A stretch of DNA of 64,000 bases from Antrihabitans stalagmiti (GTDB lineage Bacteria > Actinomycetota > Actinomycetes > Mycobacteriales > Mycobacteriaceae). The translations under genes were made by a program, and so were the position numbers. Of this stretch, positions 13,098-25,212 are shown piece after piece. The stretch is from positions 124,001-188,000 of the forward strand of contig NZ_JAEMNV010000007.1 in assembly GCF_016482825.1 (NCBI RefSeq), given 5' to 3'. A model generated the notes under the pieces. It had not been told where the DNA came from. It was given only the letters and a program-made list of their open reading frames with translations, and did no database searches. Positions within the stretch are counted from its first letter, which is position 1, and each line of letters begins with the position of its first letter.

Positions 13098-13862
13098 CTA
13101 CTCCCCCAGCGCGTCTTTCAGGTGCGCTGCCGACACGGCCCTGAGGTGGGTGAGGTCGGATGCGACGGTGGCGAAGGTGTAGCCCTCACTGAGCCGGCGA
13201 GCCGCGAGCGCACCCGAGGCCGTGTGAATTCCTGCGGCTATTCCGGCGGCCGCAGCGGCTTCCCGGACGCGAGTCAGAGCAGCTTCGAACTGCTCGTCGA
13301 CAGTCGGATCGGAGGGTGAGGAGCCGCCGACCGCGAGCCGAAGATCGGACGGACCCACGTAGACGCCGTCGAGACCGGCTACCGCACATATCGATTCGAC
13401 GTTTTCCAGGCCGAGCGGAGTTTCGATCATTGCGAGGACCACGGTGTCACGATTCGCATCGACCGGGTTGGGGCCGATCCGTAACTGCGAGCGCATCGGT
13501 CCGTACGATCGGATGCCGACCGGAGGATACCGGCTAGCAGACACCGCAAGGGCGGCGTCCGCAGCAGAATCGATGAGCGGGACGATGACCCCGACGGCGC
13601 CGGCGTCGAGCGCGCGGCCGATGGGCGTCGGGTCGTTCGCCTCGACCCTGACGATGCCAGCCGGACCGTTGGCAGCGTCGATCGCGGTCAGGCCTTGCAG
13701 CATGCCGCCGTAGCCGATCAGGCCGTGCTGCAGGTCGAGCGCGATGTAATCCCAGCCGACGTGGGCGAGCCACTCGGTCGAGACCGGACTGTCGATCACG
13801 GACCAGTACCCGAGCACCCGTTCCCGGTTTCGAAGGCGGGCGGCGAAATCAGCGGCAGACAT
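13098..13862 (-). CDS. HpcH/HpaI-family class II aldolase
   Basis: 254 aa TIM-barrel aldolase of the 4-hydroxy-2-oxoheptanedioate / 2-keto-3-deoxy-glucarate family. These enzymes split 2-keto-(3-deoxy)-4-hydroxyacids to pyruvate and an aldehyde with a divalent metal. Family marks are DYIALDLQHG (catalytic-base region), GIVRVEANDPTPIGRALDAGAVGVIVPLID (substrate Arg and GA-GVI), a metal Glu in MIETPLGLENV, and DGVYVGPSDL. ATG start follows an AKR gene by 14 bases. It is the last gene of the leftward transporter operon, so it probably acts on the imported compound after oxidation and dehydration. Confidence 0.9.
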   Translation of the reverse strand: MSAADFAARLRNRERVLGYWSVIDSPVSTEWLAHVGWDYIALDLQHGLIGYGGMLQGLTAIDAANGPAGIVRVEANDPTPIGRALDAGAVGVIVPLIDSAADAALAVSASRYPPVGIRSYGPMRSQLRIGPNPVDANRDTVVLAMIETPLGLENVESICAVAGLDGVYVGPSDLRLAVGGSSPSDPTVDEQFEAALTRVREAAAAAGIAAGIHTASGALAARRLSEGYTFATVASDLTHLRAVSAAHLKDALGE

Positions 13863-13876
13863 TGTGATCGATGTTC

Positions 13877-14836
13877 CTATCGGTTGTATGCGGGCATCGG
13901 GCCACGCAGTGCGGCGCCAACTTCGTCGCAGGCCGCGACCAGATCGTCGGACAGCGGCCCACGTGCCAGAGCAGCGATATTGGCTTGCAGGTGAGACGTT
14001 TTCGACCCACCGAGCAGAATTGGGCCCACGACGGGCTTGGAGCGTAACCACCGCAGCGCGAGTTCGGTAAGGGGAAGTCCGGCGTCGGCGGCGACGCGTG
14101 ACAGTGCGGCAATCGCCTCGAAGATCTGCGTGTTCCAATACCGCTCGCGGTACATCTCGGCGAGGCGTGAATCGCCGAAACGGCCTTCCGTCGGCGCTTC
14201 GCCGAACTGGTGTCTGCCGGTGAGCAATCCGCCGCCGATCGGGTTGTAGACCATCGTCGTCAGGCCCGAGACTGCCGCGTACTCGACGTATTCGTCCTCG
14301 ATCCGGCGCGCCAACAGGTTGTACAACTGCTGAGCGACGATCGGTCGCGGCGCCCCGACACTATCGGCGACCCGCACGACCTCGCCGATCTGCCACGCTG
14401 CAAAGTTGGACACCCCGAGTTCGCGAATCTTTCCCTCGGCAACGAACTCCGCAACGGTACCGAGTGTGTCGTCCAGGGACGCGACTCGATCGGGCTGATG
14501 CAGGTAGAACAGATCGACGTAATCGGTGCCGAGGCGCGCGAGGCTGGCTTCCAGGCTGAGCCGCAATCCCTTCGGCGACAGCGGGGAATGACCGTCGGTG
14601 TCGCCGAGGTACATGCCAGCTTTGGTAGCGATGGTGACCGAATCCCGTTTGCCTGCAAGCAACTTGGCCAATATTCGCTCGGCTTCACCAGCGGCGTAGC
14701 CATTTGCGGTGTCGATGTGCGAGATCCCGGCGTCGAGGGCAACATCCAGCAACGCCCCCGCACCGTCGATGTCCACTGTGTCGCCGAACGTCATGGTGCC
14801 GAGCACCATCGGCGAGAACATCTTGCGTGTTGTCAC
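13877..14836 (-). CDS. Aldo/keto reductase
   Basis: 319 aa (beta/alpha)8 NADPH oxidoreductase. Visible are the catalytic tetrad regions HIDTANGYAAGEAERILAK (Asp, Tyr), TKAG (Lys) and FYLHQPD (His), and the cofactor loop GGSKTSHLQANI near the C terminus. The GTG start overlaps the stop of the ATPase gene (GTGA), so it is coupled to the transporter. Within this cluster it could oxidise a sugar at C1 (as in D-threo-aldose 1-dehydrogenases) or reduce a keto group; substrate is not readable. Confidence 0.92.
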   Translation of the reverse strand: MTTRKMFSPMVLGTMTFGDTVDIDGAGALLDVALDAGISHIDTANGYAAGEAERILAKLLAGKRDSVTIATKAGMYLGDTDGHSPLSPKGLRLSLEASLARLGTDYVDLFYLHQPDRVASLDDTLGTVAEFVAEGKIRELGVSNFAAWQIGEVVRVADSVGAPRPIVAQQLYNLLARRIEDEYVEYAAVSGLTTMVYNPIGGGLLTGRHQFGEAPTEGRFGDSRLAEMYRERYWNTQIFEAIAALSRVAADAGLPLTELALRWLRSKPVVGPILLGGSKTSHLQANIAALARGPLSDDLVAACDEVGAALRGPMPAYNR

Positions 14837-24434: not shown

Positions 24435-24444
24435 GAGAGGTGCG

Positions 24445-25212
24445 ATGGCGGTCCGACAATCACAGGCACGGCGCGCAGAGATCGTCCGGCTGGCGAAGTC
24501 CAGCGGTCTCGCGAGCGTCGAGGATCTGTCGGTCCTGTTCGGCGTCACGCCGTCCACAATCCGCCGCGACCTTGGCCAACTGACGACCGAGGGTTTACTC
24601 GCCCGAACCTACGGCGGCGCGATCGCGCTCGACGCTCACCCAGAGTCGTCGATCCGGCAGCGGGCACTCGAAGGCTTCGAAGCCAAGCGGGCGATCGCGA
24701 AATGGGCAGCGAGCCAAGTGCTTCCAGGCGAAACCGTCCTGTTGGACGCCGGCACAACCGTCGGCGCAATGGGCGAGTTTCTCCGCGACGCAACGCGGCT
24801 GACCGTCATCACCGCCGGACTGACCGCTCTGGAAGAACTTGCCGACGCCAACGACGTGCGAGTCGAATGTCTCGGCGGCACCTTGCGGCATCTGAGCCAG
24901 GGTTTCGTCGGGCCACTCGCCGAATCTTCGCTTGCACGAGTATCTTTCGACCGCGCTTTTCTCGGCGCCGACGCCGTCACCGCTGATCGCGGGATATGTG
25001 AGGCCGAGCTGGAACAGACTCGGCTCAAGGAACTGATGATCGAGCGCGCCGGCGAGGTCTACGTACTCGCACACGCAGCCAAGCTCGGCCAACGACCGTT
25101 CCACGCATGGGCACCACTGCCGCCCGGCGTCACATTGGTCACCGACTCGTCGGCAACGGACGAACAGTTACGTCCCTTCACCGACGCCGGTATCGCAGTC
25201 GTGACGGTCTGA
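24445..25212 (+). CDS. DeoR-family transcriptional repressor
   Basis: 255 aa. The N-terminal winged HTH is about residues 5-58 (IVRLAKSSGLASVEDLSVLF and the recognition segment TPSTIRRDLGQL). The DeoR sugar-phosphate sensor domain follows (VLLDAGTTVGAMG, LGGTL, FLGADAV...GICEAE, AHAAKLGQR). Sensors of this family respond to phosphorylated sugars, which fits a cluster whose kinase makes a phosphorylated acid. Start ATG has GGAGAGG upstream, 10 bases after the fusion gene. Expected to bind the CTGCGC-type repeats in the two promoter regions. Confidence 0.93.
   Translation: MAVRQSQARRAEIVRLAKSSGLASVEDLSVLFGVTPSTIRRDLGQLTTEGLLARTYGGAIALDAHPESSIRQRALEGFEAKRAIAKWAASQVLPGETVLLDAGTTVGAMGEFLRDATRLTVITAGLTALEELADANDVRVECLGGTLRHLSQGFVGPLAESSLARVSFDRAFLGADAVTADRGICEAELEQTRLKELMIERAGEVYVLAHAAKLGQRPFHAWAPLPPGVTLVTDSSATDEQLRPFTDAGIAVVTV

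Follow-up and report, generated by a model that had tools for sequence, protein, structure and literature searches.

Introduction

D-threonate catabolism relies on DtnK and PdxA2, and Zhang et al. are reported to have found in 2016 that a DUF1537 kinase and PdxA2 convert D-threonate to dihydroxyacetone phosphate (DHAP). The GarL-GarR-GarK pathway for D-glucarate and galactarate uses a related logic in which a 2-keto-3-deoxy-aldarate is cleaved by an aldolase to pyruvate and a semialdehyde acid, with a reductase and a kinase completing the set; GarL is a relative of HpaI. Sialic acid catabolism combines a Dpp or SSS (sodium:solute symporter) importer, a sialidase, NanQ/YhcH and NanA, while apionate pathways pair a DUF1537 kinase with a RuBisCO-like protein. 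Here, we compare these systems with a gene island at positions 13098-25212 of a 64,000-nucleotide stretch of contig NZ_JAEMNV010000007.1 of Antrihabitans stalagmiti (the whole stretch is called the window; the host assembly comprises 6.39 Mb in 44 contigs).

The island has its kinase and PdxA families in common with D-threonate catabolism, and probably also both last steps to DHAP. It differs in that its C4 acid is predicted to arise from intracellular aldol cleavage, in that an importer, an Asp-box protein, an aldolase and a reductase are added, and in that the kinase and PdxA are fused. Compared with the GarL-GarR-GarK pathway, the predicted substrate is one carbon longer, and the reductase, kinase and dehydrogenase come from other families. 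The front end resembles that of sialic acid catabolism in importer types and sialidase fold, and YhcH and a DapA/NanA-family aldolase are common to that system and the Pseudomonadota relatives of the module; by contrast, the module has a C4-acid branch, and no ManNAc (N-acetylmannosamine) branch was seen in the gene tables. Both gene types of the apionate pathways are present in a pectin island of a Streptomyces plasmid described below, whereas the kinase paralogue and the acid differ.

In PMC6353982 and PMC12282258, Dha (3-deoxy-D-lyxo-2-heptulosaric acid) is described as a constituent of rhamnogalacturonan II (RG-II). RG-II is a pectin domain of complex structure in vascular plants, and enzymes that dismantle it have been described for a gut Bacteroides. 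PMC6811678 places Dha in chain D of RG-II, terms it a seven-carbon analogue of sialic acid, and describes how GH143, a Dha-hydrolase of Bacteroides thetaiotaomicron with a sialidase-like five-bladed propeller, sets it free. Among the titles and abstract openings listed from the open-access literature, with subscription journals outside this coverage, no report on the bacterial fate of Dha once freed and no Dha catabolic pathway was found, in agreement with the statement in an earlier note on this DNA, written from the sequence alone, that no characterised pathway has this gene set.

A candidate pathway from Dha to DHAP

Based on the computed gene set, its conservation, its operator site, the protein folds and the presence of non-homologous aldolases and reductases in one type of cluster, from which we infer all reactions and the substrate, we suggest that the island forms a regulon for the breakdown of a C7 2-keto-3-deoxy-aldarate, most likely Dha or a Dha-glycoside freed from plant RG-II. 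We give this reading a probability of roughly 0.6. The island consists of eleven intact open reading frames (ORFs). The minus strand encodes the aldolase, an aldo/keto reductase (AKR), two ATPases and two permeases, and the plus-strand arm a substrate-binding protein (SBP), the Asp-box protein, a short-chain dehydrogenase (SDR), the kinase-PdxA fusion and a DeoR-family repressor. All genes named in the earlier note are present, its outer ends match ours, and the borders as first drawn appear correct. Its outline of a co-regulated acidic-sugar catabolic unit carries over into our proposal, except for an oxidation step that is discussed below: the sugar would be imported, possibly released from a glycoside and cleaved by an aldolase, and the resulting C4 acid converted to DHAP. 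For the substrate, which it had left as an unknown acidic sugar, chemistry and pectin context make Dha the best candidate.

In the proposed pathway, a Dpp/Opp-type importer would bring in Dha or a Dha-glycoside. The importer complement is complete, with two ATPases and two permeases on the minus strand and an SBP_bac_5 receptor on the plus strand. ATPase F (14833-15744; PF00005) has its likely start at 15744 in an ORF that reaches 15780, and its place in the order is conserved in relatives; ATPase D (15741-16649) is given as the ORF maximum with a start that is not fixed, and its best Dpp-like NCBIfam model scores 246 bits (cut-off 541). Permease C (16567-17508, likely ATG at 17508; PF00528) has Opp2C/Opp4C as best models and permease B (17508-18524; PF00528/PF19300) Opp2B/NikB, while the lipoprotein receptor (18754-20328; PF00496, E 3.6e-59) has RR and a lipobox Cys at its N-terminus, as judged by eye. 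The sialidase-fold Asp-box protein (BNR_2; 20325-21590, plus strand), a candidate Dha ketosidase, would split the ketosidic bond; it is taken as cytosolic because no signal peptide is seen by eye. This, together with its full-length sialidase match, sets it apart from GH143, to which it is similar in fold. The HpcH/HpaI-family aldolase (13098-13862, minus strand; PF03328, E 3.1e-32, 112.1 bits, cut-off 25) would split Dha into pyruvate and threuronate, a C4 semialdehyde, and the AKR (13877-14836, minus strand; PF00248, E 7e-65) would reduce threuronate to D-threonate. Finally, in the fusion protein (22341-24434, plus strand; PF07005, PF17042 and PF04166 above cut-offs) the DUF1537 domain (approximately 22341-23415) would make 4-phospho-D-threonate and the PdxA domain (approximately 23439-24431) would oxidise and decarboxylate it to DHAP, both by the chemistry of their families.

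For a chain in which an aldehyde reductase acts after a pyruvate aldolase and which ends in threonate, the substrate must be a C7 2-keto-3-deoxy-aldarate. In a Fischer projection drawn by hand, the C4 and C5 hydroxyls of Dha are on the left and that of C6 on the right; breaking the C3-C4 bond and reducing C4 leaves HOCH2-C5-C6-COOH, which, turned round so that C6 and C5 become C2 and C3, has C2 left and C3 right, i.e. (2S,3R), D-threonate. To our knowledge, Dha is the natural C7 acid that gives D-threonate, and we know of no other natural 3-deoxy-heptulosaric acid.

The genes fix the logic of this chain, not the stereochemistry, and the same logic could serve a different C7 2-keto-3-deoxy stereoisomer that leads to erythronate, or a C7 ulosonate from which a tetrose is released and then oxidised. 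We give such a substrate an appreciable, if clearly minor, chance. The kinase falls below its substrate-specific cut-off, and an acid-sugar enzyme of the mandelate racemase/muconate lactonizing enzyme (MR/MLE) family is present in three of 80 aldolase loci, in Roseomonas and on a Rhodococcus antarcticus plasmid, so that some strains may begin from an aldarate. Against this, an AKR and, in relatives, an iron-type alcohol dehydrogenase (ADH) suit semialdehyde reduction more than tetrose oxidation; no lactonase is encoded in the island (lactonases were not searched for elsewhere); and, besides the lack of a second known natural candidate, apiosidase-like neighbours point to RG-II.

A possible RG-II-type context is seen at two actinobacterial loci with distant Asp-box relatives: one (L110) has pectin-type genes and the other (L133) one apiosidase-like gene; the window's island has none. 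Locus L110, covering 42 kb of the Streptomyces plasmid NBC_00184, contains a DapA-like gene, a Dpp importer, an Asp-box relative (38% identical) and a Pfam apiosidase-like gene. It also has two GH28, two GH78, a GH2, a beta-galactosidase and an alpha-L-fucosidase gene, together with a RuBisCO-like and a second DUF1537 gene, followed by AKR, kinase, PdxA and DeoR.

Unrelated aldolases and reductases in the same type of cluster

The Dha reading is supported by a plasmid search that started from the Asp-box protein and was independent of the aldolase. Among 310 records, ten loci were examined, from Azospirillum, Roseomonas, a Comamonadaceae strain, Klebsiella, Rhizobium N741, Agrobacterium fabrum, Sinorhizobium meliloti, Pantoea ananatis, Pantoea piersonii and Subdoligranulum. 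In nine of these ten loci the stretch includes PdxA together with an iron-type ADH and an aldolase of the DapA family, and in eight the kinase; at E 1e-8 none of the ten matches the HpaI aldolase or the AKR. Conversely, the Azospirillum DapA-type and iron-type proteins have no match of at least 100 bits across 80 actinobacterial loci. L110 is a hybrid, with a DapA-like gene (31%) and an AKR 56% identical to that of the window. Two non-homologous replacements thus appear to exist in one chain in different phyla, one at aldol cleavage (HpaI or DapA) and one in alcohol/aldehyde redox (AKR or iron-type), with the DapA-type and iron-type forms in Pseudomonadota and Bacillota. This interchange of unrelated aldolases and reductases is the main argument that the genes act in one chain, and for the reactions they carry out. 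In particular, the interchange of the AKR with an iron-containing ADH suggests that a C4 semialdehyde is reduced after cleavage, instead of the oxidation that the earlier note had put before aldol cleavage; for the AKR, as for the iron-type dehydrogenase in relatives, aldehyde reduction is more likely than sugar oxidation.

In NCBIfam, the DapA-type proteins have dihydrodipicolinate synthase as best model, followed by N-acetylneuraminate lyase or 2,4-dihydroxyhept-2-ene-1,7-dioate aldolase, and the iron-type ADHs have ErcA, followed by sulfoacetaldehyde and lactaldehyde reductase; all scores are below cut-off. Carriers differ between loci and include Dpp ABC, SSS, a TTT (tripartite tricarboxylate transporter) receptor, CitMHS and Nramp-like types, of which the CitMHS and TTT genes point to carboxylates. 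Beside the Asp-box gene, Pantoea and Klebsiella have a YhcH-family gene, which is below the sialate-anomerase cut-off and above the general one, and the Pantoea SDR next to the Asp-box gene shares its best NCBIfam model, PRK07577, with the window's SDR, both below cut-off. By analogy, the release of Dha by the sialidase-like GH143 and the likeness of Dha to sialic acid would match a sialidase-fold protein and a YhcH family in these clusters. The sialidase fold, the Dpp and SSS importers, YhcH and the DapA-family aldolase would equally suit catabolism of sialic acid itself, i.e. N-acetylneuraminic acid (Neu5Ac) or Kdn (2-keto-3-deoxynononic acid). We consider this very improbable, as it leaves the C4-acid kinase and PdxA without a role, and the gene tables of eight Asp-box plasmid loci and of the island list no ManNAc kinase/epimerase or N-acetylglucosamine 6-phosphate genes (no model search was made).

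A bolder version of the Dha reading holds that this is the first Dha catabolic pathway, built twice from non-homologous aldolases and reductases round a shared core; that the Asp-box protein founds a cytosolic Dha ketosidase family distinct from GH143; and that the pathway is spread over Actinomycetota, Pseudomonadota (rhizobia, Agrobacterium, Pantoea and Klebsiella) and gut Bacillota. We put this forward tentatively, at somewhat less than even odds. The new pathway, if right, is composed of known enzyme kinds. It would close the route from Dha to central metabolism, explain "exo-alpha-sialidase" genes in plant-associated bacteria, and suggest functions for PdxA, DapA, AKR and Dpp genes that now bear default names.

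Three further plasmid arrangements were observed. An unannotated Subdoligranulum plasmid (L109, 4655-15191) has kinase, esterase-like, CitMHS, iron-type ADH, DapA, PdxA and Asp-box genes. The Asp-box match on a Klebsiella plasmid (L102, 9001-10209) holds one stop in the translated stretch, with matches to the other genes of the unit around it. On Caballeronia/Paraburkholderia megaplasmids (L094, L095 and L096), a DeoR-KdgT permease-kinase-PdxA unit has no aldolase or reductase adjoining and is perhaps for direct use of a C4 acid.

Conservation of the gene set and its operator

When a genome collection covering 84,980 species was scanned with an alignment of four aldolase sequences, 217 relatives were confirmed, and the best 80 of them were analysed with fixed score thresholds. 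Fifteen of these 80 loci are shorter than the full flanks, and in loci like that of the window a flank of 10 kb ends before DeoR and within PdxA, so that the counts for DeoR and PdxA are low. The AKR is present in 65 loci, the kinase in 57, PdxA in 52, each Dpp ATPase and permease in 48, the SBP in 47, the Asp-box protein in 44, DeoR in 36, the SDR in 31, a 2-hydroxyacid dehydrogenase in 20 and an Nramp-like carrier in 17 (the latter counted with one query). The gene set, conserved beyond chance, is widespread and not confined to this genome. The genes are arranged differently in the Rhodococcus, Nonomuraea, Arthrobacter and Streptomyces types of locus, yet the set persists, which suggests that its members have a shared function. 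In locus L010 (G025), the entire island is present at 65-87% identity, except for the kinase (45%).

Within the class, the Asp-box protein is patchy and found at E 1e-60 in five of 148 genomes, the host included. Two of the four other genomes (L131 and L132) have the island's set, L132 without DeoR within the stretch, while L133 and L134 have a distant Asp-box protein near a Dpp importer, and L133 also has the apiosidase-like gene mentioned above. Nine of the 80 aldolase loci contain the core together with an Nramp-like carrier and a 2-hydroxyacid dehydrogenase, without Dpp or Asp-box genes. The Kribbella aldolase loci, one group of nine, have different neighbours and probably another function; L011 was dropped because its kinase, aldolase and AKR matches are only partial, L136 was left out as well, and of L135 only the ORFs were listed.

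Nramp-family proteins (PF01566) adjoin acid-sugar genes in L007 (417-1841), L047 (11951-13336), L085 (11904-13301) and L087 (11840-13345), which suggests organic acid transport by some "Nramp" proteins. The R. antarcticus plasmid (L009, 3584-11677) has a kinase-PdxA-DeoR unit that abuts a second acid-sugar cluster with an MR/MLE enzyme, a racemase, another DUF1537 kinase, a class II aldolase and a sugar ABC importer.

Among the 48 loci with both genes on one strand, kinase and PdxA form a single uninterrupted reading frame in 21 and are separate in 27, so that an assembly error is an unlikely source of the fusion and was rejected. The kinase is short and diverges fast (28-65% identity to the window's); decay was rejected since its motifs are invariant in 34 sequences and its model is good (pLDDT, the predicted local distance difference test, 92), with the DUF1537 fold and a top query-normalised TM (template modelling) score of 0.81 to 5dmh_A. 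The PdxA domain reaches 358.7 bits on TIGR00557 (cut-off 290.35), and its nearest solved structure is 4jqp (497 bits). As PdxS is present and this is the only PdxA of the host genome, PdxA is dispensable for vitamin B6. A bypass in which the DUF1537 kinase and PdxA feed 4-phosphohydroxythreonine into pyridoxal phosphate draws on the same two families, would leave the importer, aldolase and reductase unexplained, and was rejected as scarcely credible.

Thirteen 7-mers are common to both intergenic regions of the island, whereas 500 mononucleotide shuffles gave 1.84 on average and never as many as 13; the shared operator words of the earlier note are therefore real, as are its overlapping starts, with 4-base overlaps at SBP/Asp-box and Asp-box/SDR that follow from the ORFs. 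The common element is the palindrome TGCG-N7-CGCA, at 18601-18615 in the divergent intergenic region and at 22274-22288 between the SDR and the kinase-PdxA gene. The DeoR-family protein (24445-25212, plus strand; PF00455, PF08220), encoded 10 bases beyond the fusion, would repress via this site. We surveyed regions of 20-900 bases between matches in the 80 aldolase loci plus L007, L008 and L010, with random same-length stretches of the same loci as control. The palindrome is present in 71 of the 79 regions (2.54 expected), namely between permease B and SBP in 24 of 30 loci (1.08 expected), between SBP and kinase in 20 of 21 (0.82 expected), between SDR and kinase in 16 of 16 (0.12 expected) and between AKR and kinase in 11 of 12, Streptomyces-type regions included. 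These loci share kinship, and the counts are non-independent events. Over the whole window, the bare palindrome is not enriched (six sites, 3.98 expected; at least six in 17 of 100 shuffles). A regulon beyond the island is unsupported, with 15 genome sites for TGCGYR-N3-YRCGCA and 11 for a reversed control pattern, and the 3-kb stretches around six of the 13 non-island sites (L111-L113, L116, L121 and L124), which were compared with the module proteins only, gave no match. The site is informative through its position, not its number.

Points that weigh against the Dha reading

Several findings count against Dha as substrate or set the enzymes apart from curated families. For D-threonate kinase, the model NF047819 gives the kinase 75.8 bits (cut-off 450), and for D-threonate 4-phosphate dehydrogenase, NF002891 gives the PdxA domain 340.6 bits (cut-off 583). 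The aldolase scores far below cut-off on GarL models (145.8 of 406.75 bits on TIGR03239 and 148.2 of 393 on NF007849; overall, GarL/HpaI model scores of 137-148 bits with cut-offs of 369-407). Its nearest solved structure is 6r62, listed as a hydroxyketoacid aldolase (157 bits), ahead of the 2-dehydro-3-deoxygalactarate aldolase 1dxe (128 bits). As enzymes of the 6r62 type accept hydroxypyruvate as donor, the substrate could be a non-deoxy 2-keto sugar acid, with the 2-hydroxyacid dehydrogenase found in 20 of the 80 loci reducing the released hydroxypyruvate. We regard this as improbable: the window's island is without a 2-hydroxyacid dehydrogenase and a glycerate kinase, and in Pseudomonadota the slot is filled by DapA-family enzymes, which are pyruvate-dependent as a class.

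For the Dha reading, the Asp-box protein poses a second difficulty. It has a sialidase-type beta-propeller fold (GH33-like), and a kdnase is among the 50 structural matches listed; by sequence, its PDB matches are weak sialidase matches only. By motif reading of the sequence, R237, R340 and Y383 seem to be kept, with H48 and H221 at other sites; histidines seem to stand in for the glutamate usual in sialidases and for one arginine of the triad, so that glycosidase action is not assured. The match to 5mqr, the GH143 Dha-hydrolase, has E 0.0092 by profile and 0.64 by single sequence, and covers one Asp-box stretch only; 5mqr is not among the 50 structural matches listed, which we take as evidence neither way. 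The Asp-box proteins of L110 and L133, the loci with a possible RG-II-type context, are 38-40% identical to the window's.

Distribution and context add further points. Importer and core occur without the Asp-box protein or SDR in the stretch examined in eight of the 80 loci; 12 aldolase loci, some on short contigs, have fewer than two core genes and no importer; and distant aldolases lie in unrelated contexts, in a Streptomyces cluster of the non-ribosomal peptide synthetase type (51%) and a Rhizorhabdus locus (40%), both on plasmids. In Pantoea piersonii (L098), the stretch has just a carrier, Asp-box, YhcH and SDR genes and none of the four other enzymes. Of the RG-II enzyme families, GH28 (PF00295) and GH78 (PF05592), the two that were looked for, have no Pfam match in the host genome, which could therefore use only fragments released by others. 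Finally, the proposed chain leaves the SDR (21587-22267, plus strand, 3' of the Asp-box gene; PF13561/PF00106) unexplained.

Neighbouring genes

By eye, the island is flanked by universal-stress-type ORFs on the left and by TetR- and acyl-CoA-dehydrogenase-type ORFs on the right. The universal-stress-protein-like ORFs are on the minus strand at 1596-2579, 10492-11703 and 11475-12419, the latter two overlapping, and a CBS-like ORF (10041-10505) adjoins them. At 4281-9280, also by eye, ORFs resembling dehydrogenase E1 alpha, E1 beta and E2 come after an acyl-CoA synthetase-like ORF.

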